Of a stretch of 64,000 nucleotides of DNA, positions 31,808 through 46,276 are shown in pieces (position 1 is the first letter of the stretch; every line of letters begins with the position of its first letter). The stretch lies in assembly GCF_009258225.1 (NCBI RefSeq), contig NZ_CP043617.1, forward strand, positions 1,240,001-1,304,000, given 5' to 3'. The notes beneath the pieces are model-generated. The model saw nothing but the letters and a program-made list of their open reading frames with translations. It did no database searches and was not told where the DNA came from. The position numbers and the translations under genes are program-made. The stretch is from Sulfurimonas lithotrophica. GTDB lineage: Bacteria; Campylobacterota; Campylobacteria; Campylobacterales; Sulfurimonadaceae.

Positions 31808-31884
<77 letters not shown>

Positions 31885-31908
31885 ATTAATTATTAAAATA
31901 ACATATCT

Positions 31909-31983
31909 TGGGGTATCGCCAAGCGGTAAGGCCTCGGTTTTTGGTACCGATATTCGGGGGTTCGAATCCCTCTACCCCATCCA
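31909..31983 (+). tRNA. tRNA-Gln (UUG), integration target
   Basis: A 75-base cloverleaf with a 7-bp acceptor stem (TGGGGTA with TACCCCA), anticodon TTG at 31941-31943 and encoded CCA. The discriminator is T rather than the usual G of glutamine tRNAs. The last 17 bases serve as the left attachment site of the island. The tRNA stays intact because the element carries its own copy of the 3' end. Confidence 0.94.
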
Positions 31984-32094: not shown

Positions 32095-33450
32095 TTATTC
32101 AGACTTTCCTGTTATAAGTTCTTTGTATTTTTCATTTTCAATATACTCTTTTGCTACATCATAATAGGTATTGATATAATTACGTAAGTAAGCTGTTTTT
32201 TCATGATATCCATCAACTTCATTAATAATTTCTTTATCGAAATAACCTTTTTTTTTCATATCATATACATAAAGCATATCAGATAGTTTTTTTTGTGGAC
32301 TTTCACCTTTCATTACTGGCAAACAAGTTAAGTCATCGCCTTTTTCTAACTCCTTTCCAAGAAGCTCAAAAGGAGTTTTCGGATTTATGTGTTCTTTAAC
32401 TTTTGTTATGTACTCTACTATTTCATCAAGAGGTAATGAAAAATTAATTGGAAGTATTGGTTGATTTTGGTCATTTACTTGTCTTTTAAAGTTTGGAATA
32501 ATATTATTAATATCAATCTTATACTCATTATTCAGTACGAATATAGACTGGTATTTAATAAACTCTTTATATGTTATTTGTTCATATCTCATACCTATTC
32601 CATCTTCTGCATTCTCATCGTTTAAAACTCGCACACATTCTTCTTTATGTGAATTTGTTATTGTTTCGCCACCCATAGCTTTTTCTGCACACGGAAATTT
32701 TCTATGGTATCCTTCTGGGTAAATTAAATAATCATTGATTAATTCATCTTCAATCATTGTTTGTAAATCCATAAGAGTTGTACTTTCAAGTTCAGTACAC
32801 ATATCTATATAATCGTCTATAAATTTTTTATAATCTTCTTTTATTAACTTTTCATAATTAGCTTGTTTTTGTTCGTAAAGTTTTTCATATTTAGGGTATT
32901 CTTCATCAATTTCTTTCTCATCTTCATACCCATATGCAAAAGCAAACAGTTTTTTGGACATATGCATCTTAAAAAAATATTTATCATCCTTCAACATTGT
33001 TGATATTTTTTCATATCTAGATAATAATTTTTTTACTTTATTATTTCTAATAGCCATTTCATAAGCTATACAAGGTGTCAATTCATATTTTTCAAAACTA
33101 TCAATTTCAGTGTATTTTTCATCACATCTTGATATAAACATTCCTTTAACTTTCGGTAATCGAAACCTTGTAGACCAAAAACTTCCAAACTCTATTTTAT
33201 CATCATTCGAGAATGTTTCATACTGTTGTTTTAGTCTCTGAATTTTTACTCCAAAAACATACTTAAGTTCTTCAAGAAACTCTTCTGTAGAACATTCCTT
33301 AAAAAATCTTTTATAAAGAAATTTTTCTCTCTTATTTCCTACTGTTTTTGAAAATGCCATTTTGATTTCATTGAAAGTATATTGCTCTTTAACAGGAATA
33401 TTTCTATTAAATATTTTGAGCATTTTATCTGTAGTAGTCTGTTCCTTCAT
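32095..33450 (-). CDS. Unrecognised island protein (451 residues)
   Basis: A soluble, charged and largely helical protein. I see no known catalytic motif. The C-terminal 65 residues (from SPQKKLSDMLYVYDMKKKG) resemble a helix-turn-helix-like helical end. It is the last gene of the leftward run that begins at hsdM and lies 15 bp after the 186-residue gene, so both probably belong to the restriction transcript. Position directly downstream of hsdR is common for accessory defence genes. A defence role is inferred from position only. Confidence 0.55.
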   Translation of the reverse strand: MKEQTTTDKMLKIFNRNIPVKEQYTFNEIKMAFSKTVGNKREKFLYKRFFKECSTEEFLEELKYVFGVKIQRLKQQYETFSNDDKIEFGSFWSTRFRLPKVKGMFISRCDEKYTEIDSFEKYELTPCIAYEMAIRNNKVKKLLSRYEKISTMLKDDKYFFKMHMSKKLFAFAYGYEDEKEIDEEYPKYEKLYEQKQANYEKLIKEDYKKFIDDYIDMCTELESTTLMDLQTMIEDELINDYLIYPEGYHRKFPCAEKAMGGETITNSHKEECVRVLNDENAEDGIGMRYEQITYKEFIKYQSIFVLNNEYKIDINNIIPNFKRQVNDQNQPILPINFSLPLDEIVEYITKVKEHINPKTPFELLGKELEKGDDLTCLPVMKGESPQKKLSDMLYVYDMKKKGYFDKEIINEVDGYHEKTAYLRNYINTYYDVAKEYIENEKYKELITGKSE

Positions 33451-33465
33451 GTTTTACTTTCTTTG

Positions 33466-34026
33466 TTAAATAAAATCAATTGCTAAAGACTCAAATTCTC
33501 TAATACTACAACCATACATTGTAAATATAAATGCCTCATATTCCGCACAAGTTTCTTTCTTTAAAATAACATCTTTAATCTCTTCAATCTTATCATCGAC
33601 TTGCTTCATGGTAAGGCTTCCATGACTTCCTCTAAAAACTGATTCATACATCAAAATAAATAATACTCCATCTTGATATTCTTTGTTTAGAGCATTTAAT
33701 ATTAGTTCGATTTGTTCGTTGATTTGCTCTACTGAATCGCTAAAAATTTCTTTGTAATGATGTTGCTTTAATCCTCTGAAGTTTGCTTCATCATAGTTGC
33801 TAAGCTGTGATCGTACACAAAACTCTTGATATATAAGTGCTAGTATTGCAATTCTAGACCTAACTACCATCCCTTCATCATCAGTTCTATATATAGTTAG
33901 TCCTGCACTCTCAAGAGCACTCCACATCATTTTAGCCCATATCTTATCTTCACCATCTATCCAAAAGCTAAAATAGTGATCTACAATTATTCTTACTTCT
34001 TTCCAAGTTAATAATTTAGAATCCAT
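33466..34026 (-). CDS. Unrecognised island protein (186 residues)
   Basis: A soluble helical protein, start 8 bp after the hsdR stop. It has no recognised motif. The sequence is rich in aromatic residues (WIDGEDKIWAKMMW) and appears to be a compact helical domain. Tight spacing to hsdR and to the 451-residue gene suggests co-expression and perhaps a two-protein unit. Confidence 0.55.
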   Translation of the reverse strand: MDSKLLTWKEVRIIVDHYFSFWIDGEDKIWAKMMWSALESAGLTIYRTDDEGMVVRSRIAILALIYQEFCVRSQLSNYDEANFRGLKQHHYKEIFSDSVEQINEQIELILNALNKEYQDGVLFILMYESVFRGSHGSLTMKQVDDKIEEIKDVILKKETCAEYEAFIFTMYGCSIREFESLAIDFI

Positions 34027-34034
34027 TCATATAC

Positions 34035-37000
34035 CTATTTTTGATTATACTTCTTAAAATTCTCAGCCTGTTCAAATATCTCTTTAAACACTTCATCTTT
34101 TGTAATTGGTGGATATCCATGTTTAGCAAGCAGCATGATCAGGTCGACTTTTAATTCAGCCTTGATATCGTCCCTTACATTCCAGTCAGTGTATTTGGTT
34201 TTATCATCCACAACTTGCTTGACTTCTTTCGCAAGAGCTATTAATTTATCTTCTGGATAATCAAAGTCATATTTATGAGCTATCTCTTTTAAAATATCGT
34301 AGAACGCTTTTTCTTCGAAGTTTATCCCCATATCTCCAAATGATTCTTTCTCTTTTTTCAGTTCATGATACAGATCAATAATCTCATCAGTGAAGTCCTC
34401 AATGACTCCACTGACAAGTACATCTTCTTCTTTTCTTTCATTGTATTTCTCTACGAGTGCTGTAAACTTTTTACTAAAGTCTATAGCTTTTACTTTATTT
34501 ACCTTTTTAAAATCTTCAAGTGCTTTAGCTAATAGCTGTTGAAGCAGTTTTATCTTTGTATTTGGAAGTTTGATTTTATCTATCTTGTTGATGTAATCTT
34601 CATCAAAAATATCTATCTGTGCTTCATCTTCTGAACCTAGTTTAAAGATCTCTTCAACACCATCACTTTTAAGAGCTTCAGCTATCATCTGAGATACTTT
34701 AGCGTTCATCTGTGCAGTATCAGGTGCATCACCTTTTGTAAGCTTGATAACAATAGAACGAACAGCTAAGTAAAAGTGTATGTAGTCTTTCTCTTTTTGC
34801 GTAAACTCTTCACTTCCACAAGCGATATCATAAGCAGCTTTTAACCTCTTTACGAGGTACATAAATCTAGTTTCTAACTCTTTTGTTAGTTGTACATATT
34901 CACTAGCATTGTTTAAGCACTCTAACTGTTCTGTAGGGCTACCACTAAAATATGGAGAACTATCAAACCTATGAAACAGTTTTGCAAGTAAATCCAGCTG
35001 ATCCCTTACAACCACTATTGAAGCATTGATATCTTCAAAGTTCTTGCTATCAATACTAGAGAACTGTTTAAGAGCTTTATTCATAGCTGTTTTTATACCT
35101 ATATAATCAACTACAAGCCCTTTATTTTTTCCTGCAAACTTTCTATTTACCCTTGAAATAGTTTGGATAAGGTTATGCTCTTGTATAGGCTTATCGATGT
35201 AGATAGTATCTAAGAACGGTACATCAAATCCTGTAAGCCACATATCAACTACTATAGCTATTTTAAAGTTTGATTTTTCATTTTTAAACTGTGTATCAAG
35301 TGTTTTTCTATACTCTTTTGTTCCTAGCATATCCCACAACTCTTTTTCATCATCTTTATTTCGAGTCATAATCATCTTGAGCTTTTCAAGTGGAAGTATC
35401 TCTTTTTTCTCTTTATCACTTAGTTCCACACCATCATCACAAACTCTTTGTTCATTCCACTCTGGTCTTAGTGTCACAAGCTCTTTAAAGAGTGCATAGG
35501 CTATCGGTCTACTGCTTGAGACAAACATAGCTTTACCTTTAAGCGTAGCACCTTCTTCTACTCTTTTTTCATAGTGTTCTACAAAGTCTTTGGCTATAGC
35601 TTTTATTCTATCTGGATCACCAAGAATGGTACTCATATTTGAGATAGCTTTTTTACTATCTTCTATTTGGTATTCACTAGCTCCTGCTTCTGCACACTCA
35701 TCGTAGTACTTTTCAATATCTTGAAGTTTTGAGTTATCGAGTAGAACCTTGGCAGCACGACCTTCATACACAACTCTAACTGTGATCTCATCCCTTACAG
35801 ACTCAGTCATTGTATAGCTGTCTACCACACCACCAAATACATCAAGTGTAGCGTCTATAGGTGTACCTGTAAAACCTACATAAGTAGCATTTGGAAGTGA
35901 GTCATGCAGATACTTTGCAAAACCATAAGTCTTTTTAACTCCCTTGTCAGTCACTTTTACTTTTTGATCTAAGTTTATCTGACTTCTATGTGCTTCATCA
36001 GATATACAGATGATGTTTGTTCTCTCACTAAGTAGTTCTATATCTTCTGTAAACTTATGTATGGTCGTTAGAAACACCCCACCACTCTCACGACCTTTTA
36101 ATCTTTGTCGTAAATCTTCACGACTCTCCACACTAACAATCCCATCATCCCCTACAAAACCTTTTGCATTACCAAATTGTCTACTTAGCTGATCATCCAA
36201 ATCTGTTCTATCTGTGATGAGTATAATTGTAGGACTAGAGAAATGAACACTTTTCATAAGCAGTCTTGTAAGATAAAGCATAGTAAAACTTTTACCGCAC
36301 CCTGTAGCACCAAAATATGTACCACCTTTACCATCGCCATGTGGTTTTTGGTGTTGTTTTATATTTTCATAGAGTTTTCTAGCTGCATAGTACTGAGGAT
36401 AACGACAAACTATCTTTTCCTCTTTTTTAGACTTGTCAGGTATGTAGATAAAATTGTGGATGATGTCTATAAGTCTCTCTTTGTTAAACATCCCTTGGAT
36501 CATAGAGTGCATTGATGCTATACCATCTACATCTTCTTCATTGCCAGTTATCTTTCTCCAAGAGTAAAAGAACTCATAAGGTGCAAAAAATGAACCTGCT
36601 TTATTGTTCACTCCATCACTTATGACACAAAACGCATTGTATTTGAAAAGCTCAGGAATATCTCTTCTGTACCTAGTTGTGAGCTGTACAAAAGCATCAT
36701 GTATAGTAGCTTCTTCTCGTATGGCACTTTTAAACTCAAATACCACCAATGGCATACCGTTTATATACAATATGCCATCAGGTATTCTTTTTTCATAAGC
36801 AACTATCTCAAGCTGATTTACTATCTTAAAAGTGTTCTTGTCTATAGTTTCATAATCTATAAACTGAATATGAATATCTTTTTTACTTGCATCTTCACGT
36901 TTAAAGATAAAACCATCAGAAACTAGCTTCATAATCGATTTATTTGTATCGTATAAGTCACTTGAAGGATAAGACTCTAACTTACGGATGATTTGAGTTA

Positions 37001-37181
37001 TTTCACTCTCAGTTATGTTATCAGATTTATACCTATCAGCAAGATACTTCTGTAAATCATCTTTTAAAAGAACTTCACCCTCATCTCTTTCAATCTCTTT
37101 ACCATGCTGATAACTAATACCTTGCTCTTCAAGTAGTTCTATAAACGCCAGTTCTAGTTTTTCTTCTGTAAATTTACTCAT
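34035..37181 (-). CDS. hsdR: Type I restriction enzyme, R subunit
   Basis: A 1048-residue motor and nuclease subunit. The N-terminal PD-(D/E)XK nuclease has D135 and E149-F-K151. The superfamily 2 helicase has Walker A GATGCGKS (residues 291-298) and the DEAH box at 395-398. Motif VI-like QTISRVNR is present, and a helical C-terminus binds HsdM. It cuts unmodified DNA after translocation when complexed with HsdM and HsdS. It overlaps the fic gene by 8 bp. All key residues look intact. Confidence 0.96.
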   Translation of the reverse strand: MSKFTEEKLELAFIELLEEQGISYQHGKEIERDEGEVLLKDDLQKYLADRYKSDNITESEITQIIRKLESYPSSDLYDTNKSIMKLVSDGFIFKREDASKKDIHIQFIDYETIDKNTFKIVNQLEIVAYEKRIPDGILYINGMPLVVFEFKSAIREEATIHDAFVQLTTRYRRDIPELFKYNAFCVISDGVNNKAGSFFAPYEFFYSWRKITGNEEDVDGIASMHSMIQGMFNKERLIDIIHNFIYIPDKSKKEEKIVCRYPQYYAARKLYENIKQHQKPHGDGKGGTYFGATGCGKSFTMLYLTRLLMKSVHFSSPTIILITDRTDLDDQLSRQFGNAKGFVGDDGIVSVESREDLRQRLKGRESGGVFLTTIHKFTEDIELLSERTNIICISDEAHRSQINLDQKVKVTDKGVKKTYGFAKYLHDSLPNATYVGFTGTPIDATLDVFGGVVDSYTMTESVRDEITVRVVYEGRAAKVLLDNSKLQDIEKYYDECAEAGASEYQIEDSKKAISNMSTILGDPDRIKAIAKDFVEHYEKRVEEGATLKGKAMFVSSSRPIAYALFKELVTLRPEWNEQRVCDDGVELSDKEKKEILPLEKLKMIMTRNKDDEKELWDMLGTKEYRKTLDTQFKNEKSNFKIAIVVDMWLTGFDVPFLDTIYIDKPIQEHNLIQTISRVNRKFAGKNKGLVVDYIGIKTAMNKALKQFSSIDSKNFEDINASIVVVRDQLDLLAKLFHRFDSSPYFSGSPTEQLECLNNASEYVQLTKELETRFMYLVKRLKAAYDIACGSEEFTQKEKDYIHFYLAVRSIVIKLTKGDAPDTAQMNAKVSQMIAEALKSDGVEEIFKLGSEDEAQIDIFDEDYINKIDKIKLPNTKIKLLQQLLAKALEDFKKVNKVKAIDFSKKFTALVEKYNERKEEDVLVSGVIEDFTDEIIDLYHELKKEKESFGDMGINFEEKAFYDILKEIAHKYDFDYPEDKLIALAKEVKQVVDDKTKYTDWNVRDDIKAELKVDLIMLLAKHGYPPITKDEVFKEIFEQAENFKKYNQK

Positions 37182-38142
37182 GAACTATTTCCCAGTGACC
37201 AGATTTTAAACTCCCTACCCTTGTAAGTCTATGCTGCTCTTTTAGTTTTGCTATATCTCTTTTGATAGTTTTATCTGTCACATCCAGTAAACTAGCCAGT
37301 TCTGCTATGGTTATAGCTCTGTTTTCACTAATGATTTCAATAATTTTATCGAGTCTTTTTATTGGGACATTTTTAGGGACACTATTTGGGACATTTACAT
37401 TTTTTATGTTTTGCATAGATTCGAGTATCATCTCAAGCATAAACTCTATAAACGGAGTGCTTTCACCTTGCTCTGTCGAATTTTCTATAGCTTTGTAGTA
37501 CTCTTCTTGATGATCTCTTACTATACTCTCAGTCGGTAAAAGTGAAAAAAGAGGATTGTAACTGTTTAAGATAACGCTCTGCCAAAGTCTACCTATACGA
37601 CCGTTACCATCTGAAAATGGATGAATAAACTCAAACTCATAATGGAATATACAAGATTTTAATAGCATATGCTCATCGCTGTTTTTAAGCCAAGTAAAAA
37701 GGTCTGTCATAAGGTCACTTACCATGCTAGGCTGTGGAGCTATGTGTTCACCAACCTGAACATTTACACTTCTAAAACTTCCAGCAGTTGTTAAGATCTC
37801 ATCCATCAGTATTTTATGTGCGAGTAAAAGGTCATCTAGCTCATCGTAACGGTACGATTCTAACTTGTCATACGCTTTTATAGCCCCTTGTACTTCTGCA
37901 AGTTCTTTTACACTTCCTAAAACCTTTTTACCATCTATGATAGAAGTGATCTTCTCTTCTCCTAAAAAGTTACCCTCTATCTCTAAAGTACCAGCTAATG
38001 TTTTAATGCGGTTCTTTTTTCTTAGCATAGGATTTACTTTTGTAATGCTAGAGAACTGAAGTTTTGTGAGTTCTTCACTTATTTGCGTTGATAGTTTTAG
38101 TATTTTTGAGGTTATTTTGTATGGTGGGGTGTAGTTATTCAT
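37174..38142 (-). CDS. Class II Fic protein with C-terminal winged helix
   Basis: A 322-residue protein. The inhibitory helix is TLEIEGN (T52-x-x-x-E56-G57), matching the S/T-x-x-x-E-G/N rule, so activity is expected to be held off until released. The active motif HPFSDGNGRIGR at residues 174-185 is complete. Fic enzymes transfer AMP (or another nucleotide) to proteins. Residues about 262-322 form a winged-helix DNA-binding domain (ITIAELASLLDVTDKTIKRDI). Its ATG follows directly after the T-run of the terminator-like hairpin, and it overlaps hsdR, so it is translated with that subunit. Confidence 0.9.
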   Translation of the reverse strand: MNNYTPPYKITSKILKLSTQISEELTKLQFSSITKVNPMLRKKNRIKTLAGTLEIEGNFLGEEKITSIIDGKKVLGSVKELAEVQGAIKAYDKLESYRYDELDDLLLAHKILMDEILTTAGSFRSVNVQVGEHIAPQPSMVSDLMTDLFTWLKNSDEHMLLKSCIFHYEFEFIHPFSDGNGRIGRLWQSVILNSYNPLFSLLPTESIVRDHQEEYYKAIENSTEQGESTPFIEFMLEMILESMQNIKNVNVPNSVPKNVPIKRLDKIIEIISENRAITIAELASLLDVTDKTIKRDIAKLKEQHRLTRVGSLKSGHWEIVHE

Positions 38143-38188
38143 AAAAAAAATCCTCTCTCTGGTATATTTTTAAGAGGTGGAAAGGATT
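38143..38188 (-). terminator. Terminator-like hairpin between the DRT3 RNA and fic
   Basis: On the minus strand, AATCCT (38183-38188) and AGGATT (38149-38154) can pair, with inner AGAG/CTCT or CCTCT/AGAGG pairing. A run of eight T follows, ending one base before the fic ATG. The 3' arm AGAGAGGA is also the only ribosome site for fic, so folding would both end transcripts and hide that site. Confidence 0.6.
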
Positions 38189-38316
38189 GTTTATAAACAT
38201 GCAGCCCGAACTCACTGCATTAGAAGTACATACCTTTTGAATCAAAGTATTTACCATATCACTTGTGTGTGAAATTGTTTTGTTCGGAATGACGTGAAAA
38301 AACATTTTATCAAACA
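38143..38316 (-). ncRNA. Candidate DRT type 3 non-coding RNA
   Basis: The 174-bp gap after drt3b has no convincing gene; a 60-codon frame across it lacks any protein-like character. Read on the minus strand it has ordered RNA structure. CCGAAC (38287-38282) is followed by a CACACACA tract (38271-38264), a 7-bp hairpin (38250-38230), and a hairpin ATGCAG/CTGCAT (38220-38199). The loop of that last hairpin contains GTTCGG, complementary to the first element, so a pseudoknot is possible. A T-run hairpin ends it. DRT3 systems are reported to use an AC-repeat template in their RNA; the tract here fits. The exact 5' end is not determined. Confidence 0.7.
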
Positions 38317-40350
38317 TTAGCTGTAAACCTCCTGACTTTTTTTCAATTCAATTTCTTCTGCTAAATTAAAATCTTGCCATTTAACAAACCAATATTTTTG
38401 CTTTAATGAAAATACAACTATTTTATTTTGTGTAGCTGGATCAGTTACATCATTCAAAGATAGAAATCTATTTTTATCTTGAGTATCTACATAAGGGCAA
38501 GTCATCAAGTCCATTAAAAGTAACGTAAGCTCAGTGTTTTTTCTAAGATTATCTTTATTGTAAGATTTAAACTTATTTTCAATACACTCCAAAAGCTTTG
38601 TTTTGATGTTAGCATATCGACTGATATTTTTTATATAGTAAAGTAAACTCACTATTACGAAGTAATTTAACTCTATTCCGTCATCAAAAAAATAACTATC
38701 TAAAAAATTGCTCTCGAGCCTATAGTCTTTACCTATTTCGTTTAATATCAATAGCAGATATAATGTTTCATTTTGTGTATATTCTTTTAATTTATTTTTC
38801 TTCAGTATTTGAAAAGTCTCATCATACATTTTTTTATAAATCAATTCAATTTGATAATTTTTAAATATCCTATTGTGTGCCTTACTGTCTTTGATAAATT
38901 GTATTAGTTTACTAATTAGTGAAACTATTTTAATAGTTGATGTAACTCTAGGTGATACAGAATATATAAAAAATAAAAAGTTCAGTAACTGCATCGTATA
39001 AGCAACAAACATATCAGTATAAAGCAATTGATTTTCGGAGTTTTCAAGTTTGGAAATAATTTTTAAATATCTCTTTTCTATTGTTGCTATTGAATAGTTC
39101 AAAATATCTTTATATTCTATATTTGTCTCTTTAATAATCATTTTAAATTTTGTTATAACATCTTTAGAATTTAAAGAAACACTCCACTGCTTTTCATCTT
39201 CTGTTGCATTGTCTTTTATTACATAACTAAAATTTTCATTAATTAATTCAGTTATTTTTGTTTTTGCTATTGTCAAATCTGTAATAATAGGTTTAACAAA
39301 TTCAATTGTTTTTGTATCGCTCACATATAAGTTATATTCTTTTAACTCATGTTTAAAAGTTTCAGTTACTATATTTTTAACTCGCTCATCATCATAAAAT
39401 ACGAAATAGTCATCGACATATCTAAAAATTTCATAGTGAGTTTTATGTAAACATGATTTTGTTTCTAGGTTGCTTTTTACCTTCTTATCAATACTTTGTA
39501 AAATTAGTTCAGCAAAAATACGAGAGATCTCAGCGCCAATCAAAATACCATTTGTCTCACCATAGTTCATATTTTGCATCAATTTATCAAACTTACCTGC
39601 GAATGTGGCATCTAATTTAGTATTTAAATTATCTTTTACTATTTCTTTGTTTAATAGTGCCCATGCGATAGTATGTGTATAAATACTGTCAAAGCATTTA
39701 TTAATATCAAATTTATAAAGTTTGTCAAATTTCTTTTCACATCTTTGATATTCATAAGACTCAAAAAACCTATGGATATTACTGTACTTTTTATAGGTAA
39801 AAAAACTTTTTAAATGTTCTTCTTCATTATCATGAATCTCAATTTTATTATGAGCCAATTTGGTATTTTTTCGTTTTTTTAGATAGTTGTTCATATATCT
39901 ATTTTTAGCTATTTTAAAAGGTCTTCTAATAGAAAATTCACTTTCATTTGAAAAATATTTTATACTTTCTTTATATGTACTATAGAAATTCACTATCATC
40001 AGTTGATTTAAAGGATGTATCAAAGATAAGTTTCTAAAATCATTTTTTTTATGTGCAATTTTAAAAGTAAATGGAATAGTTCTTTCATGATTTTCAAATG
40101 AAGCTTTATTGTTATCAACTTTGACGTTGAAAAGTAGTTCTAAAACTTCTTTTACATCTGTAACACTGTTATCAAATATAATTTCATTGTTTTTTATTTC
40201 TACTTTATTATTCACCAAAAATCTATAAAAATATCTATTAGAAAATATTGCTGGTGTTTCATAAGGCAATGTATCTGATAAAACAGCTCTTTCTTTTAGA
40301 TAAGTAATTTTTTGTTTTTTTCTAAACTTTCTACTCATAAGTTCTTCCAA
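38317..40350 (-). CDS. drt3b: Antiviral reverse transcriptase Drt3b
   Basis: A 677-residue reverse transcriptase. Motif A is KFDINKCFDSIYTH (213-226), motif B TNGILIGAEISRIFAELIL (266-284) and motif C FRYVDDYFVFY (309-319, catalytic YVDD 311-314). The N-terminus has LPYETPAIFSNRYFYRFL, typical of defence-linked UG RTs. The long C-terminal part is alpha-helical, as in abortive-infection RTs. It overlaps drt3a by 16 bp. The pair with a shorter RT and an AC-rich RNA is the DRT type 3 arrangement (UG3/UG8), an antiphage system. Assignment of a versus b is by size and order. Confidence 0.85.
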   Translation of the reverse strand: MEELMSRKFRKKQKITYLKERAVLSDTLPYETPAIFSNRYFYRFLVNNKVEIKNNEIIFDNSVTDVKEVLELLFNVKVDNNKASFENHERTIPFTFKIAHKKNDFRNLSLIHPLNQLMIVNFYSTYKESIKYFSNESEFSIRRPFKIAKNRYMNNYLKKRKNTKLAHNKIEIHDNEEEHLKSFFTYKKYSNIHRFFESYEYQRCEKKFDKLYKFDINKCFDSIYTHTIAWALLNKEIVKDNLNTKLDATFAGKFDKLMQNMNYGETNGILIGAEISRIFAELILQSIDKKVKSNLETKSCLHKTHYEIFRYVDDYFVFYDDERVKNIVTETFKHELKEYNLYVSDTKTIEFVKPIITDLTIAKTKITELINENFSYVIKDNATEDEKQWSVSLNSKDVITKFKMIIKETNIEYKDILNYSIATIEKRYLKIISKLENSENQLLYTDMFVAYTMQLLNFLFFIYSVSPRVTSTIKIVSLISKLIQFIKDSKAHNRIFKNYQIELIYKKMYDETFQILKKNKLKEYTQNETLYLLLILNEIGKDYRLESNFLDSYFFDDGIELNYFVIVSLLYYIKNISRYANIKTKLLECIENKFKSYNKDNLRKNTELTLLLMDLMTCPYVDTQDKNRFLSLNDVTDPATQNKIVVFSLKQKYWFVKWQDFNLAEEIELKKSQEVYS

Positions 40351-41687
40351 ATACTCAATATTTCTTCTAACTCTTTTTTTGAAAACTTGTAGAAGTTTTT
40401 CTTTTGAAATCCATCAACAAAACTAAAAGTTTTTAGCTTGTTTTTTAGTTTTGTAGTACCATTCAGATTTAAACGGGAGTAAGGTTGTAAGTTTCTTTCA
40501 ACTGCTACACATTTAAAATAATTATCAAGTCTCTTTAGTTTTGAATCCACACTTATTTGTTGATTTGAAAAATATGCACCTATCAAAATATCTTTTTTAA
40601 CACCTAACAGCCGTGTATTACCAGTCAAATATTTTAATCTTTGAATTAATAATCTTCGAGCAGCTTTTTCGTTATATTTACTCGTTCTATTATAATCTTC
40701 AATTGAAATGTTCAACTTTTCTTTATATCTCTGCTCTTTATTACTACTTATATCTATTTTAAGTGGATTGGCGAAAGTAAAGTTATAACCTAAAAAATCA
40801 AAATTGAAATTGTTAGTTTGTGTAAAATCCATAGGTTTTGTTTTTGTAGTATTACGCCTTAAGCCATATTTTGTAATCTTTTCATCTATTAAATTTAAAT
40901 AATCAATACTTTCATGCTTATTATTTGGTGTAAATACAATGATTATATCATCCACATATCTTGCATAATAAGTCACATTACTCAAGTCTCTTATATCATT
41001 ATCAAAATCTCTCATATATAATTCAGCAAGATAAGCACTTATACCTATTCCTCGTGGTATTCCACTATTTTGACCTGTAATAATCTGATACTGTCTTAAT
41101 ATTTCATTGATGATTTTTTTTGACAATGGACTAAGTATATGATTTCTGGATATGACTTTTTTTAATTCATCATGAGGAATAGTTTCATAAAAACTTGCAA
41201 TATCTGTTCGTATAATGTATTTTGGAAATCCGTTATCAAGCATATTTACAACTTGAGACACTATTTCATTCCTATCAGCTTGCTTTACTTTAAAGGAGTG
41301 CTGTATATTTTTTTGAATTTGCTTAAATAAAAAAAATGTTTCTACATTACTTCTATCGACAGTATAAGCTGTTTTTCCCTTGATAGTTTTAGTAAGCATT
41401 GAAATTGAATAGTTTTTTTTATCAATTTTTTCTTCTACTAATGACAAAATTATTTGTAAGTTATCAAACTTTCTCTTTTTTAATCTTTCTTTTCTATGGT
41501 TTGCTCTTTCTCTTTTTTCAACTGTAGAATAAAATCCATCTCTAAATTTTTTGTTAATTTTTTTTATTGAATTTCCATAATGTTTTAGAATATTAAATTC
41601 TGAAAATCTACCATCTAAATAGTCACCTTTTCGGTTTTCATCATAATAAATTTTTGTAAAATTTTCAACATTAAAAGATTGCTTCAT
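40335..41687 (-). CDS. drt3a: Antiviral reverse transcriptase Drt3a
   Basis: A 450-residue reverse transcriptase. Motif A is RTDIASFYETIP (160-171), motif B GIPRGIGISAYLAELYM (209-225) and motif C YARYVDDIIIVF (241-252, YVDD 244-247), followed by FLGYNF of the thumb region. It starts 2 bp after the hsdS stop and overlaps drt3b by 16 bp. In DRT3 this subunit is the RNA-templated enzyme, reported to copy the AC repeat of the ncRNA. There is no maturase domain, protease or intron structure, so it is not a group II intron. Confidence 0.85.
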   Translation of the reverse strand: MKQSFNVENFTKIYYDENRKGDYLDGRFSEFNILKHYGNSIKKINKKFRDGFYSTVEKRERANHRKERLKKRKFDNLQIILSLVEEKIDKKNYSISMLTKTIKGKTAYTVDRSNVETFFLFKQIQKNIQHSFKVKQADRNEIVSQVVNMLDNGFPKYIIRTDIASFYETIPHDELKKVISRNHILSPLSKKIINEILRQYQIITGQNSGIPRGIGISAYLAELYMRDFDNDIRDLSNVTYYARYVDDIIIVFTPNNKHESIDYLNLIDEKITKYGLRRNTTKTKPMDFTQTNNFNFDFLGYNFTFANPLKIDISSNKEQRYKEKLNISIEDYNRTSKYNEKAARRLLIQRLKYLTGNTRLLGVKKDILIGAYFSNQQISVDSKLKRLDNYFKCVAVERNLQPYSRLNLNGTTKLKNKLKTFSFVDGFQKKNFYKFSKKELEEILSIWKNL

Positions 41688-41689
41688 TC

Positions 41690-42904
41690 TTATCCCTCAA
41701 TTATTGCCATTTTGGAAAGTAAAACATCTTTTAATTCATGTAGTTTATGGTTTTCATTTTGTTTAATTAAAATATGCTCAAACAACTTTTCTGATTTCTC
41801 TCCAAATTTATAAATCGTTTTTGAATCTGGATATAAAACTGAAATTTGTTCAAAGTCACGAGTAACTAATGCGCCAAAAACTCCTCCATTAGCATGATTT
41901 TTTAATACATCCAATGTTCTTAGGGTGTGTTGATAAACAAAGAATTGATTTATATCTTTTCCAATAGCCGCATAACAACTTTGATTCATTGCCATATCTG
42001 TTGAAGCCATAGCTATTGCCCCCACAGTTCCTCTTGCTGTTATAAAAACTGTATTTATTGGATAAATTTTTGTACTACTATTGTCAAAACCAAGTTGCGT
42101 TATATTTTTTTCTGTGCTGATACTATAAATTGATTCAGAAACATCTTTTGGAGTGAAAAAAGGTATTTTACCGTCCCAATATTCAATAATTTCAGTACTA
42201 GGAGTTCCACCACCTTTTAAGTCAATCATATTTGTGTAAGGAACAGAACTCCATTCATTAGGTATTTCCATATCCAGTTCTTCTGAGTATTTCATCTTAC
42301 CACCATTTGATTTATATGGCTTACGGTTTTCATTTGGAAATTCAAAATTCATAAACCACTCTTTATAGATACTTTGTGCTGTATCTTCTAGTTTTTGATT
42401 TAGTTGCTCATTTAGTTTGATTCTATCTGTGATAGTATGATATTCTTTAACTATCTCTATTTGTTTGTCTATAGATGGAACATTTATATCTATAGAGCAA
42501 AAGTCTTCCCATGATATACTTCCCCTAACATCAGCACCACTCATAAACCATAGATATCTGTCATTCTCACTTCTTGATAGCCACATCATTAAGTATTCGC
42601 TTAAAAGTTCATTTTCATCTTTTACTTCAAATACATAATACGCAGAAGATATAATAGCCTCATCATGTTCTTGCATTAAAGATATTGGGAGCCTCCCATC
42701 TCTTCCAACACTCATAAATTTGCATCCAAACTGACCTTTCTTAACTACTTTATACTTTGTTAAATCCGCTCCTATTATATTTGCGACAGATGGCATAAAC
42801 TTCTTATCTAAATTTACACCAACTAGAAGATCTATTTTTCCATCAACATTTCTTACATTAACTTGTCGTATATAGTCACCTAACTTTTTATAGTTTGATC
42901 TCAT
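41690..42904 (-). CDS. hsdS: Type I restriction enzyme, specificity subunit
   Basis: A 404-residue protein with two target-recognition domains. The first is about 1-150 (starting SNYKKLGDYI). The second is about 215-370, with the usual IPNEWSSVPYTNM and GGTPST features. Conserved helical spacers (QLNQKLEDTAQSIYKEWF and QNENHKLHELKDVLLSKM) follow each. It defines the bipartite DNA site for methylation and cutting. It overlaps hsdM by 17 bp. No second partial hsdS or inverted copy, which would signal phase shuffling, is visible. Confidence 0.94.
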   Translation of the reverse strand: MRSNYKKLGDYIRQVNVRNVDGKIDLLVGVNLDKKFMPSVANIIGADLTKYKVVKKGQFGCKFMSVGRDGRLPISLMQEHDEAIISSAYYVFEVKDENELLSEYLMMWLSRSENDRYLWFMSGADVRGSISWEDFCSIDINVPSIDKQIEIVKEYHTITDRIKLNEQLNQKLEDTAQSIYKEWFMNFEFPNENRKPYKSNGGKMKYSEELDMEIPNEWSSVPYTNMIDLKGGGTPSTEIIEYWDGKIPFFTPKDVSESIYSISTEKNITQLGFDNSSTKIYPINTVFITARGTVGAIAMASTDMAMNQSCYAAIGKDINQFFVYQHTLRTLDVLKNHANGGVFGALVTRDFEQISVLYPDSKTIYKFGEKSEKLFEHILIKQNENHKLHELKDVLLSKMAIIEG

Positions 42905-44456
42905 AACCCAACTCTTTAAAAACTGTCAATAGTTCTTGTTTTGATTGTTCTTCTTGTTTTAAAAGCTCTGTAAATTCACTTTTTAGATTTGTCATCTTAG
43001 TATCAAAGTCTATGTTCTCATCTCTATTTACAAATTCTATATATTTACTTGGTACTAGAGAATAGTCTTTTTTCTCAACTTCTTCTTTTGAAGCACTGTA
43101 GCAGTATTCAGGTATGTCTTCATAAGCTTTTTTATCACTTTGCCATGTATGATAAGTAGACGATATTTTTTCTATAGTTGTTTGGTCAAATTGAATGTAT
43201 TTTTTCTCAAATGGTATACCTTGCTGTCTCAAATCCATAAAGAGTATTTCATTCGTTCTGTCTCTGTGAATTTTATTTACACCGTTTTGTTCAAACTCTC
43301 TTAGTTTTTTATTGGCATTAAGTATCCAAATAGTTACACTTATTGTAGTCGTATAAAACATATTTTGAGGAAGTATTAAAATAGCCTCTACCAAATCATT
43401 TTCAATAAGCTTTTTTCGTATCTTATACTCTTCGCCACCACCGCTTAACGCACCATTAGCAAGGATAAACCCAGCTACACCATTAACAGAGAGTTTAGAT
43501 ACCATGTTAAGTATCCATCCGTAGTTAGCGTTTGATGTTGGAGGAACATCATATCCTGCCCATCTTGGATCATCTAACAGTTCATTTGCACCTCTCCAGT
43601 CTTTTTGGTTAAATGGAGGATTTGCCATGATAAAATCAGCTTTGAGATCTTTGTGTTGATCTTTTGCAAATGTATCAGCCGGTACATCTCCAAGGTTTGC
43701 AGATATTCCCCTGATAGCTAGGTTCATCTTTGCCAGTTTGTATGTAGTTGCCGTGTACTCTTGCCCGTAGATAGAGATATCTTTTTTGTTTCCTTTATGA
43801 GCTTCTATAAACTTCATAGACTGTACAAACATACCACCTGAACCACAAGCAGGATCATAGATCTTACCTTTGTATGGTTCTATCATATTTGCTATAAGAT
43901 TTACTATAGATTTTGGAGTATAGAATTCCCCTTTACCTTTCCCCTCAGCTATGGCAAATTTACTCAAGAAGTATTCATATACACGACCGACTATATCGTG
44001 TCCTTTGTCTTCTATGGTGTTGATGTTATTGATAGTATCTATAAGAGATGAGAGCTTACTTGCATCAAGTCCAAGTCTTGAGAAGTAGTTATCTGGTAAT
44101 GCACCTTTAAGGCTTGGGTTGTTCTTCTCGATTGTAGAGAGTGCAGTATCAATTTTTAGGGCTATGTCATCTTGTTTGGCATTTTGTTTTATGTAACTCC
44201 AACGTGATTCTTCAGGAAGATAGAACACATTCTCCATAGTGTAAAACTCCACCATATCTACAAATGCTTCTTGCCCTTGTTCTATTAGCTGCTGGCGTCT
44301 CTCCTCAAATGTATCACTTACAAACTTTAAAAAGATAAGTCCAAGTACAATGTGCTTGTATTCACTTGATTCAACTGTACCTCTAAGTTTATTTGCACTA
44401 TCCCATAGTGTCTCTTCCATAGATTTTTGTTTTTTTGCTGCTTTTGCTTTTGCCAT
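42888..44456 (-). CDS. hsdM: Type I restriction enzyme, modification (adenine methylase) subunit
   Basis: A 522-residue N6-adenine methyltransferase. The SAM motif DPACGSGG lies at 201-208 and the catalytic NPPF at 279-282. The N-terminal HsdM helical domain (MEETLWDSANKLRG) is typical. Two HsdM with one HsdS form the methylase that protects host DNA. It is the first gene of the restriction and DRT3 transcript, with an AT-rich promoter upstream. Confidence 0.96.
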   Translation of the reverse strand: MAKAKAAKKQKSMEETLWDSANKLRGTVESSEYKHIVLGLIFLKFVSDTFEERRQQLIEQGQEAFVDMVEFYTMENVFYLPEESRWSYIKQNAKQDDIALKIDTALSTIEKNNPSLKGALPDNYFSRLGLDASKLSSLIDTINNINTIEDKGHDIVGRVYEYFLSKFAIAEGKGKGEFYTPKSIVNLIANMIEPYKGKIYDPACGSGGMFVQSMKFIEAHKGNKKDISIYGQEYTATTYKLAKMNLAIRGISANLGDVPADTFAKDQHKDLKADFIMANPPFNQKDWRGANELLDDPRWAGYDVPPTSNANYGWILNMVSKLSVNGVAGFILANGALSGGGEEYKIRKKLIENDLVEAILILPQNMFYTTTISVTIWILNANKKLREFEQNGVNKIHRDRTNEILFMDLRQQGIPFEKKYIQFDQTTIEKISSTYHTWQSDKKAYEDIPEYCYSASKEEVEKKDYSLVPSKYIEFVNRDENIDFDTKMTNLKSEFTELLKQEEQSKQELLTVFKELGYEIKL

Positions 44457-44563: not shown

Positions 44564-46276
44564 TTAGATACTTAAAACCTTTTGGGTCTGTAGCATAGCA
44601 ATGAAGTCATCGTTATTCTTGGCTTTTAAATCTATATCCATAAAATCTGCCATTTGATAAACAGATGTATTAACATCTAAATTGTTTTCGATTTTATGTT
44701 TCATATCTTCAGCAATTTTTGTAAATTGAAGTTTTTGTTTTGCAAGTATTTCAAGAGATTCTGTTTGAAAGATATCAGTATTTTTTTTGATGTTTTCTAT
44801 ACGAAGTTGAAATATTTCTTTTACTCTAGCAAGTCTTTTTTCATCTTTTACAGAGAATAAGTCTATCTGGTCTAATAACCAAACAACAAGTGTTGTAGCA
44901 AGCCCTGAAACAATAATTGTAGCAACATCACCAATTATAGGTATCTTTTCTAATGCACTTTCTAAATTAAATATCAAAATAGGTACTACAGCAGAAGCAA
45001 TTATTTTTGTAATAGCATCAGCTTTTTGTGCTGAACTCATTTCTTCTGATGGTTTTAGCATAATTTTAAATGCCTCTTTTATAGACATAAAACCTTGTGT
45101 AACAATTTCAATAAACTTTTTAAACATTCCTAAAAATGCTTTTAGTATATTTTCTAATAACATTGGTATAAAATTACCTATTACATCTTTTATAGCATCA
45201 CCTAATGTATTTAGTGCATTTTCTTTTATAAATTTACCAGCTCGCTTTAGTCTTAGAATAAAAGCTTCTATCTTATCATTTGTATCAAAACCATATAAAA
45301 CACCATTTAAAAACATGTCTTTTATCTCAAACCATATTGGTTTTAATATTAAAACTATTGCATCGCCGAAACCTTTTAAACCAACATTTTTTGCCATTAA
45401 TTTTCTAGCTTCTTTATTTTGAGCTTCTGTAGCTTCTTTTTCAAGTTTTAAAGCTTTTTCTTTTTCAGTTTCGGTTAAAGCATCTGGATTTTTTTCAATA
45501 AATTCACTCCATGTCATATCACCTTTTGCTCTATTTAAAGATGAATTTATATAGGTTTCATTTTGTTCCAATCCTATAACTTGTTCTAGGTCATCCCTAT
45601 AAAGGTAAGGGTTATTCTGATATTTTTTTCTTACACTATTAATTGGATTAACATGATCCATATCTGCTGATTGTATACCTTTTTGTTTTGCACCATTAGT
45701 TGTTAAATCAATATTCTCACCAGTTACATCATCAATTACAGTAGCAGTTTTTTTAGTCTTTATTTCGCCTTTTTTATTCTCATAAGTAATTGTTTCATTA
45801 CGTTCAATACCTTTAGATTTTTCAGTTTCAGACCTTGATTTCGTGTCATAATGGTTATTTCTAGTATCTGTACCATAATGACTTTTTTCTGCTTGAGTTA
45901 AAAAAACATCTTCATCAACATCTTTATGTGTAAACTGTTCATAACTAAAGCTATTTACTTCGTTCACAAGTCTTGATGGAGTAACATTTGTTTTTCTAAA
46001 TGATCCATTTAGTTTTGGATGTTTAATTAGTCCATCAGCTATACCCAAAAGCATAGGGTTTACAAGTTCAGTAACAATATTTTGTCCACTTTCAAACTCT
46101 TCATAAATTTTATCCATTATTTCCAAAGATGATTGTTGATCATGTAGTTCAATGTCAATGAGCTTTTTACTCATTTGAAGTGGAGATGTATTGTTTAACT
46201 CTTCCCTTAATTCTTCGAAAGATAGAGTTTTGCCAACCAGTTCCTTTGTTTGTTCATCTAGCTCATTTTTACTCAT
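44564..46276 (-). CDS. Unrecognised protein with HNH-like motif and hydrophobic helices
   Basis: A 570-residue protein. Residues about 200-252 look like a beta-beta-alpha metal (HNH-type) nuclease: D207-H208 (SADMDHVNPI), N244, N248 and K251. Residues about 310-470 are hydrophobic and amphipathic helices (VVPILIFNLESALEKIPIIG, TIIVSGLATTLVVWLLDQI) that could insert in a membrane. The C-terminus is a charged coiled coil. It ends a four-gene operon with spacing of 9-22 bp. I do not recognise the family. The layout suggests a nuclease linked to a membrane-active domain. Confidence 0.6.
   Translation of the reverse strand: MSKNELDEQTKELVGKTLSFEELREELNNTSPLQMSKKLIDIELHDQQSSLEIMDKIYEEFESGQNIVTELVNPMLLGIADGLIKHPKLNGSFRKTNVTPSRLVNEVNSFSYEQFTHKDVDEDVFLTQAEKSHYGTDTRNNHYDTKSRSETEKSKGIERNETITYENKKGEIKTKKTATVIDDVTGENIDLTTNGAKQKGIQSADMDHVNPINSVRKKYQNNPYLYRDDLEQVIGLEQNETYINSSLNRAKGDMTWSEFIEKNPDALTETEKEKALKLEKEATEAQNKEARKLMAKNVGLKGFGDAIVLILKPIWFEIKDMFLNGVLYGFDTNDKIEAFILRLKRAGKFIKENALNTLGDAIKDVIGNFIPMLLENILKAFLGMFKKFIEIVTQGFMSIKEAFKIMLKPSEEMSSAQKADAITKIIASAVVPILIFNLESALEKIPIIGDVATIIVSGLATTLVVWLLDQIDLFSVKDEKRLARVKEIFQLRIENIKKNTDIFQTESLEILAKQKLQFTKIAEDMKHKIENNLDVNTSVYQMADFMDIDLKAKNNDDFIAMLQTQKVLSI

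Follow-up and report, generated by a model that had tools for sequence, protein, structure and literature searches.

We analysed a 64,000-nucleotide (nt) stretch of the Sulfurimonas lithotrophica genome (contig NZ_CP043617.1, positions 1,240,001 to 1,304,000; hereafter the window, in whose coordinates positions are given) and found that the gap between the genes drt3b and fic very probably encodes a noncoding RNA that serves a DRT3 anti-phage system as the template for poly(TG) synthesis by the reverse transcriptase Drt3a. A first-pass annotation, made from the letters of the sequence, had proposed an AC-repeat template RNA in this gap, and its proposal is supported by conservation of the tract, by covariation of the pairings and by the published ACACAC template, which was assigned to a noncoding RNA encoded downstream of drt3b (PMC13174585). 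Sequence comparison provides the identity of the genes, the conservation of the tract, the covarying elements (helix H1, a pseudoknot and hairpin H3) and a layout that differs from the one next to characterised Drt3b. The copy in the window is presumably expressed and active, and its repeat DNA products and defence role would be those of published DRT3 work, from which they are carried over by analogy.

The gap lies in a minus-strand operon with the order hsdM (44456-42888), hsdS (42904-41690), drt3a (41687-40335), drt3b (40350-38317), gap, fic (38142-37174) and hsdR (37181-34035). The genes and RNA elements under discussion are the following:

40335-41687, minus strand: drt3a, encoding a 450-amino-acid (aa) reverse transcriptase of the UG3 type with an intact YVDD motif (PADLOC Drt3a, E-value (E) 2.6e-112; PDB 9z6y_A, Drt3a, E 2.6e-32).
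38317-40350, minus strand: drt3b, encoding a 677-aa protein of the UG8 type (PADLOC Drt3b, E 8.1e-196; alignment to PDB 26cz; family alignment A1).
38199-38299, minus strand: the whole match of covariance model R1 (38.1 bits, E 5.5e-6).
38288-38296, minus strand: 5' strand of H1, CACGTCATT, with the core TCATT at 38292-38288, pairing with 38263-38255; the equivalent helix covaries in 35 relatives.
38282-38287, minus strand: 5' strand of the pseudoknot, CCGAAC, from structure scoring and covariation.
38272-38281, minus strand: single-stranded linker AAAACAATTT, without a template-adjacent hairpin, unlike most relatives.
38264-38271, minus strand: template tract CACACACA, read from the sequence, an AC repeat conserved in relatives.
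38255-38263, minus strand: 3' strand of H1, AGTGATATG, starting immediately after the template.
38226-38254, minus strand: hairpin H2, GTAAATAC...GTATGTAC, from the fold, at the same position in relatives L028 and L029.
38199-38220, minus strand: hairpin H3, ATGCAGT/GCTGCAT with loop GAGTTCGG, in which L028 and L029 have a compensating change from C-G to U-A.
38206-38211, minus strand: 3' strand of the pseudoknot, GTTCGG, the final six bases of the H3 loop.
38143-38188, minus strand: terminator-like hairpin AATCCTTTC...GAGAGAGGATT (38188-38149, 9 pairs, long loop) with an 8-T run (38150-38143), from fold and sequence.
38135-38317, minus strand: a 60-codon open frame over the RNA, starting at an ATG that overlaps the drt3b stop codon.

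The first-pass annotation had set CACACACA between CCGAAC and a hairpin carrying GTTCGG in a 10-base loop. The sequence confirms this arrangement on the minus strand, the loop having 10 nt if the U-G closing pair is not counted and 8 nt if it is. The tract begins 48 nt downstream of the first base of the drt3b stop codon and is present as a single copy in the 64 kilobases (kb), both strands counted. Two elements had been missed, namely helix H1 (CACGTCATT/AGTGATATG), which closes the template loop, and hairpin H2 (38254-38226).

To assess conservation, the regions downstream of drt3b relatives were gathered from genomes, viral contigs and plasmids; the queries were close to the window, and the shares given here are no census of DRT3. 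All 99 fetched relatives have an AC repeat, 6 nt or longer, within 250 nt after the drt3b stop; among random 250-nt segments drawn from these loci the share is 3.8%. The closest relatives, L029 and L028 (Drt3b 79-80% identical), retain the RNA layout. The first-pass annotation had suggested looking for compensating changes in related gaps, and such changes were found: the pseudoknot strands are CCGAAC/GTTCGG in L029 and, with a compensating change, CTGAAC/GTTCAG in L028, and more distant loci carry CCGTC/GACGG, CCGCTC/GAGCGG, CCAGA/TCTGG or CCGACA/TGTCGG at the same place. Both the tract and the pairing are thus conserved in homologous loci.

The structure was scored in a fixed geometry of H1, pseudoknot and H3, which together with the swap test described below superseded a first pseudoknot search without fixed geometry that separated real from shuffled sequences poorly. 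The window scores 22.7 against a null of 12.2 +- 5.4, a value reached by 1 of 5000 dinucleotide shuffles of the flanks, and in 70 of 98 loci the score is higher than that of each of 40 shuffles. Because this score itself selects for pairing, a swap test was run in which H1 and H3 were picked without regard to the pseudoknot. Across 79 distinct loci, own pseudoknot partners score 355.6 and swapped partners 193.3 +- 12.6, with 0 of 5000 permutations as high, so that the pseudoknot proposed to bracket the tract covaries in the relatives. In a plain MAFFT alignment of 35 relatives that excludes the window, L028 and L029 (alignment A2), 6 of the 6 pseudoknot pairs change on both sides. From these sequence comparisons, H1, the pseudoknot and H3 covary across relatives, the pseudoknot strongly. 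The window RNA likewise falls by its sequence within the pseudoknot class, with H1 around the template and a pseudoknot that joins the bases just past the 5' strand of H1 to those at the end of the 8-nt H3 loop.

Covariance model R1 was built from the 35 relatives, without close campylobacterote copies and without the pseudoknot. It gives a single match in the 64 kb (38299-38199, minus strand), and also matches L028, L029 and the Escherichia coli drt3 locus L127. In L127 and its kin, H1 and a TCAGGC/GCCTGA pairing are present; H3 is weak and the automatic score is not distinct from shuffles, and these loci are therefore not counted as firm members of the pseudoknot class. An Rfam scan of the window returned no family above the gathering threshold except two tRNAs, and the gap RNA matches none; R1 offers an annotation tool for DRT3 RNAs, which Rfam lacks.

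Several results weigh against the template RNA interpretation. The minimum-free-energy test on the gap is not significant (z -1.46), and the lowest-energy fold includes a helix that competes with H1. H1 of the window contains a mismatch, and R1 aligns it in a shifted register. The share of paired cells in A2 (94.2%, versus 34-46% with partners slid) is inflated, as the 35 relatives were selected for high structure score and the columns derive from per-sequence best structures. Structure contributes to the R1 score, but part of that score is sequence alone, a sequence-only model giving 19.0 bits (E 7.2e-5) on the same gap. Finally, a promoter scan of the gap found no promoter-like site above chance, so the RNA would have to be part of the operon transcript or start from an internal promoter.

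The two genes upstream of the gap are, by sequence and at family level, Drt3a and Drt3b, adjacent as DRT3 requires, and the PADLOC and PDB matches agree with their earlier naming as DRT3 genes. The solved structures nearest to the window proteins (26cz and 9z6y/9z6z) are all DRT3 proteins. Residues E31, R106, R277 and Y676 of the window Drt3b correspond to E22, R71, R241 and Y666 of EcoDRT3b and are all kept, according to the 26cz alignment and family alignment A1; 26cz numbering carries a 108-residue tag offset, with which E22, R71, D182 and R241 fall on the correct letters. In EcoDRT3b, E22 serves as the dA gate, R241 as the dC switch and Y666 in priming, with R71 also listed (PMC13174585), and the characterised Drt3b synthesises poly(CA) independently of any nucleic acid template. 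Drt3a is proposed as the copier of the AC template. A search of 151 genomes of the family for drt3a returned only this genome, the remaining matches being weak and to generic reverse transcriptases.

These elements suggest the following mechanism. The transcript downstream of drt3b would fold such that H1 closes a loop exposing CACACACA as a single strand, while the 3' domain (H2 and H3) would be tied back by the 6-base-pair pseudoknot to bases just past the H1 5' strand. Drt3a would bind this RNA and copy the tract repeatedly into poly(TG), slipping by dinucleotides, and Drt3b would independently make poly(CA) from its own tyrosine. The two strands would then pair into repeat double-stranded DNA acting in defence.

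The relatives also bear on how the 5' edge of the template is set. The linker between pseudoknot and template is at least 14 nt long in 53 of the 64 clear loci, nearly all of which fold a hairpin at or near the template 5' end; in the other 11, the window included, it consists of 7-12 unpaired bases and the pseudoknot is kept. These short-linker loci are scattered over the Drt3b tree (99 proteins, FastTree, with long-branch warnings), implying 10 changes, at least 8 of them forced by well supported branches. By analogy, we infer that the pseudoknot, and not a hairpin, may set the template 5' edge in the window. A wider proposal, which we advance tentatively and with some doubt, is that most related DRT3 systems use an undescribed architecture of a 5'-proximal AC template and a pseudoknot-folded 3' domain, and that the hairpin-less lineages, among them that of the window, use the pseudoknot as the template boundary, as some telomerase RNAs do.

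The boundary part of this proposal has a rival to which we give an even chance, in which the RNA is a template but its pseudoknot is a scaffold contact for assembly of Drt3a and Drt3b. Most pseudoknot-bearing relatives also have a template-touching hairpin that could already act as the boundary, and in published work the DRT3 RNA contributes structurally to the 6:6:6 complex (PMC13314766); against this, eleven loci across the tree that are devoid of the hairpin still hold the pseudoknot within those few bases of the template. The conserved pseudoknot and the repeated natural absence of the template-side hairpin offer a direct way to probe how the template edge is set.

A function without any template, in which the RNA is a mere 3' untranslated region with a terminator or attenuator for fic-hsdR, is highly improbable. 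The 8-T run ends directly before the fic ATG, and the hairpin preceding it probably contains the fic ribosome site; yet the conserved elements are also present after drt3b where the genes further downstream are entirely different, and the sequence immediately preceding fic relatives that lack DRT3 contains nothing of the kind. The second hairpin and T-run terminator proposed by the first-pass annotation are both present in sequence and fold, but a pattern-based terminator scan of the gap did not report the terminator-like hairpin, because its loop exceeds the length that the rule allows. As a separate observation, this hairpin (38143-38188), by appearing to include the fic ribosome site, could couple fic expression to the operon.

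Less probable still is a short translated gene of 60 codons, whose overlap with drt3b at TAATG would couple the two genes, with the AC tract being incidental: the frame is also open in L029 and L028 and its ATG is preceded by AGGAGG, but this motif belongs to the conserved SQEVY codons of drt3b, the overlapping start is missing in most relatives whereas tract and pairing persist, and codon statistics led us to reject a conserved protein, since the frame differs from that of L029 by 24 nonsynonymous and 3 synonymous codon changes (codon-position differences 7/13/11) without the third-position excess of drt3b (134 nonsynonymous and 165 synonymous; 87/66/215).

The putative template RNA and its two reverse transcriptase genes stand inside a type I restriction operon (34035-44456), between hsdS and fic-hsdR. 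DRT3 likewise adjoins hsdS/hsdM in L028, and in L029 its neighbour is the same fic gene. The genes upstream of fic relatives elsewhere are different, so the locus is possibly an insertion spot for defence genes. Adjoining hsdM is a 570-aa protein (44564-46276) that matches PDC-M40B, a candidate defence family, at E 8.1e-12. The region 32095-34026, between hsdR and two tRNA genes (31808-31980), encodes two proteins (186 and 451 aa) that gave no Pfam or PADLOC match, and it is possibly the edge of an island. Among the relatives, the E. coli drt3 locus L127 (8113-12008) has as neighbours integrases and a Hachiman defence system with HamA and a helicase, and in L025 (5334-7377) a plasmid-borne E. 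coli drt3b is annotated in two pieces, whereas chromosomal copies form one intact gene. In the bee-gut Orbaceae loci L098 and L104, a minimal tract, CACACA, follows the drt3b stop by about 80 nt, and the surrounding RNA is different.

Repeat DNA synthesis by DRT3 combines an RNA-templated polymerase with a protein-templated one, and in the literature found, two DRT3 systems have been studied in detail, both from E. coli. EcoDRT3 (Wang et al. 2026, Drt3b = 26cz) has two reverse transcriptases and a downstream AC-repeat noncoding RNA, as in the window, and shares with it the Drt3b gate and priming residues. A search of phage records gave no close copy of EcoDRT3b; viral contigs did hold one, L141, in which a 293-aa encoded stretch is identical to 26cz. 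In L141, large stem-loops separate the drt3b stop from the template, which comes 131 nt after it and is followed by little beyond the terminator, whereas the template of the window starts at 48 nt and is followed by H2, H3 and the pseudoknot. PDB entries 9z6y/9z6z appear, by their molecule names, to be the DRT3 of Deng et al. 2026, and locus L114 is 99% identical to the 9z6y Drt3b over 300 aa. L114 resembles the window in its gene pair, its AC template and the position of the template directly before the 3' strand of the closing stem, but the template lies 126 nt past the stop and is enclosed by GCAACC/GGTTGC; pseudoknot geometry of the window type was not found in L114.

The template distance is 126-143 nt in L114, L113, L141 and L142, and in L141 and L114 a long-range stem encloses the template after several stem-loops, with 19 nt remaining to the end of the folded stretch. 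R1 gives no match at E up to 5 against L141, L142, L114, L113, L117 or L123. In both layouts the 3' strand of a closing helix comes immediately after the template; the remaining RNA stands before the template in the characterised type and after it, tied by the pseudoknot, in the window type. In the Drt3b tree, a fully supported group of 87 holds the window and all near-template loci, with the far-template loci of the 26cz and 9z6y types outside it; within this group, two have a far tract and 18 near-template loci failed the pseudoknot score. On sequence grounds, the window RNA is thus a member of a broadly distributed layout and differs from the RNAs in both laboratory systems. The first-pass annotation, which saw a divergent version of the known RNA, was largely right in proposing a DRT3 RNA; the family model assigns it a different layout and not that of a mere divergent copy. 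The RNAs of the two E. coli systems do not represent this clade of 87 of the 99 Drt3b proteins, a set gathered with the clade's own queries. The word pseudoknot is absent from the text of PMC13174585, whose RNA model was built from EcoDRT3 relatives (32 unique hits).

How the template edge is set is a question that repeat-making reverse transcriptases of this kind have in common with DRT10 and telomerase. The noncoding RNAs of DRT10 (UG17) and DRT9 template the synthesis of repeat or homopolymer DNA, and a stem-loop upstream of the template defines its 5' edge (PMC12632851). These systems differ from that of the window in reverse transcriptase groups and partners, and the template-adjacent stem-loop of DRT10, termed inflexible (PMC12632851), has no counterpart in the window. 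In telomerase RNA, a stem-loop or pseudoknot marks the template 5' end (PMC12632851), to which the pseudoknot of the window RNA may be likened by analogy only.
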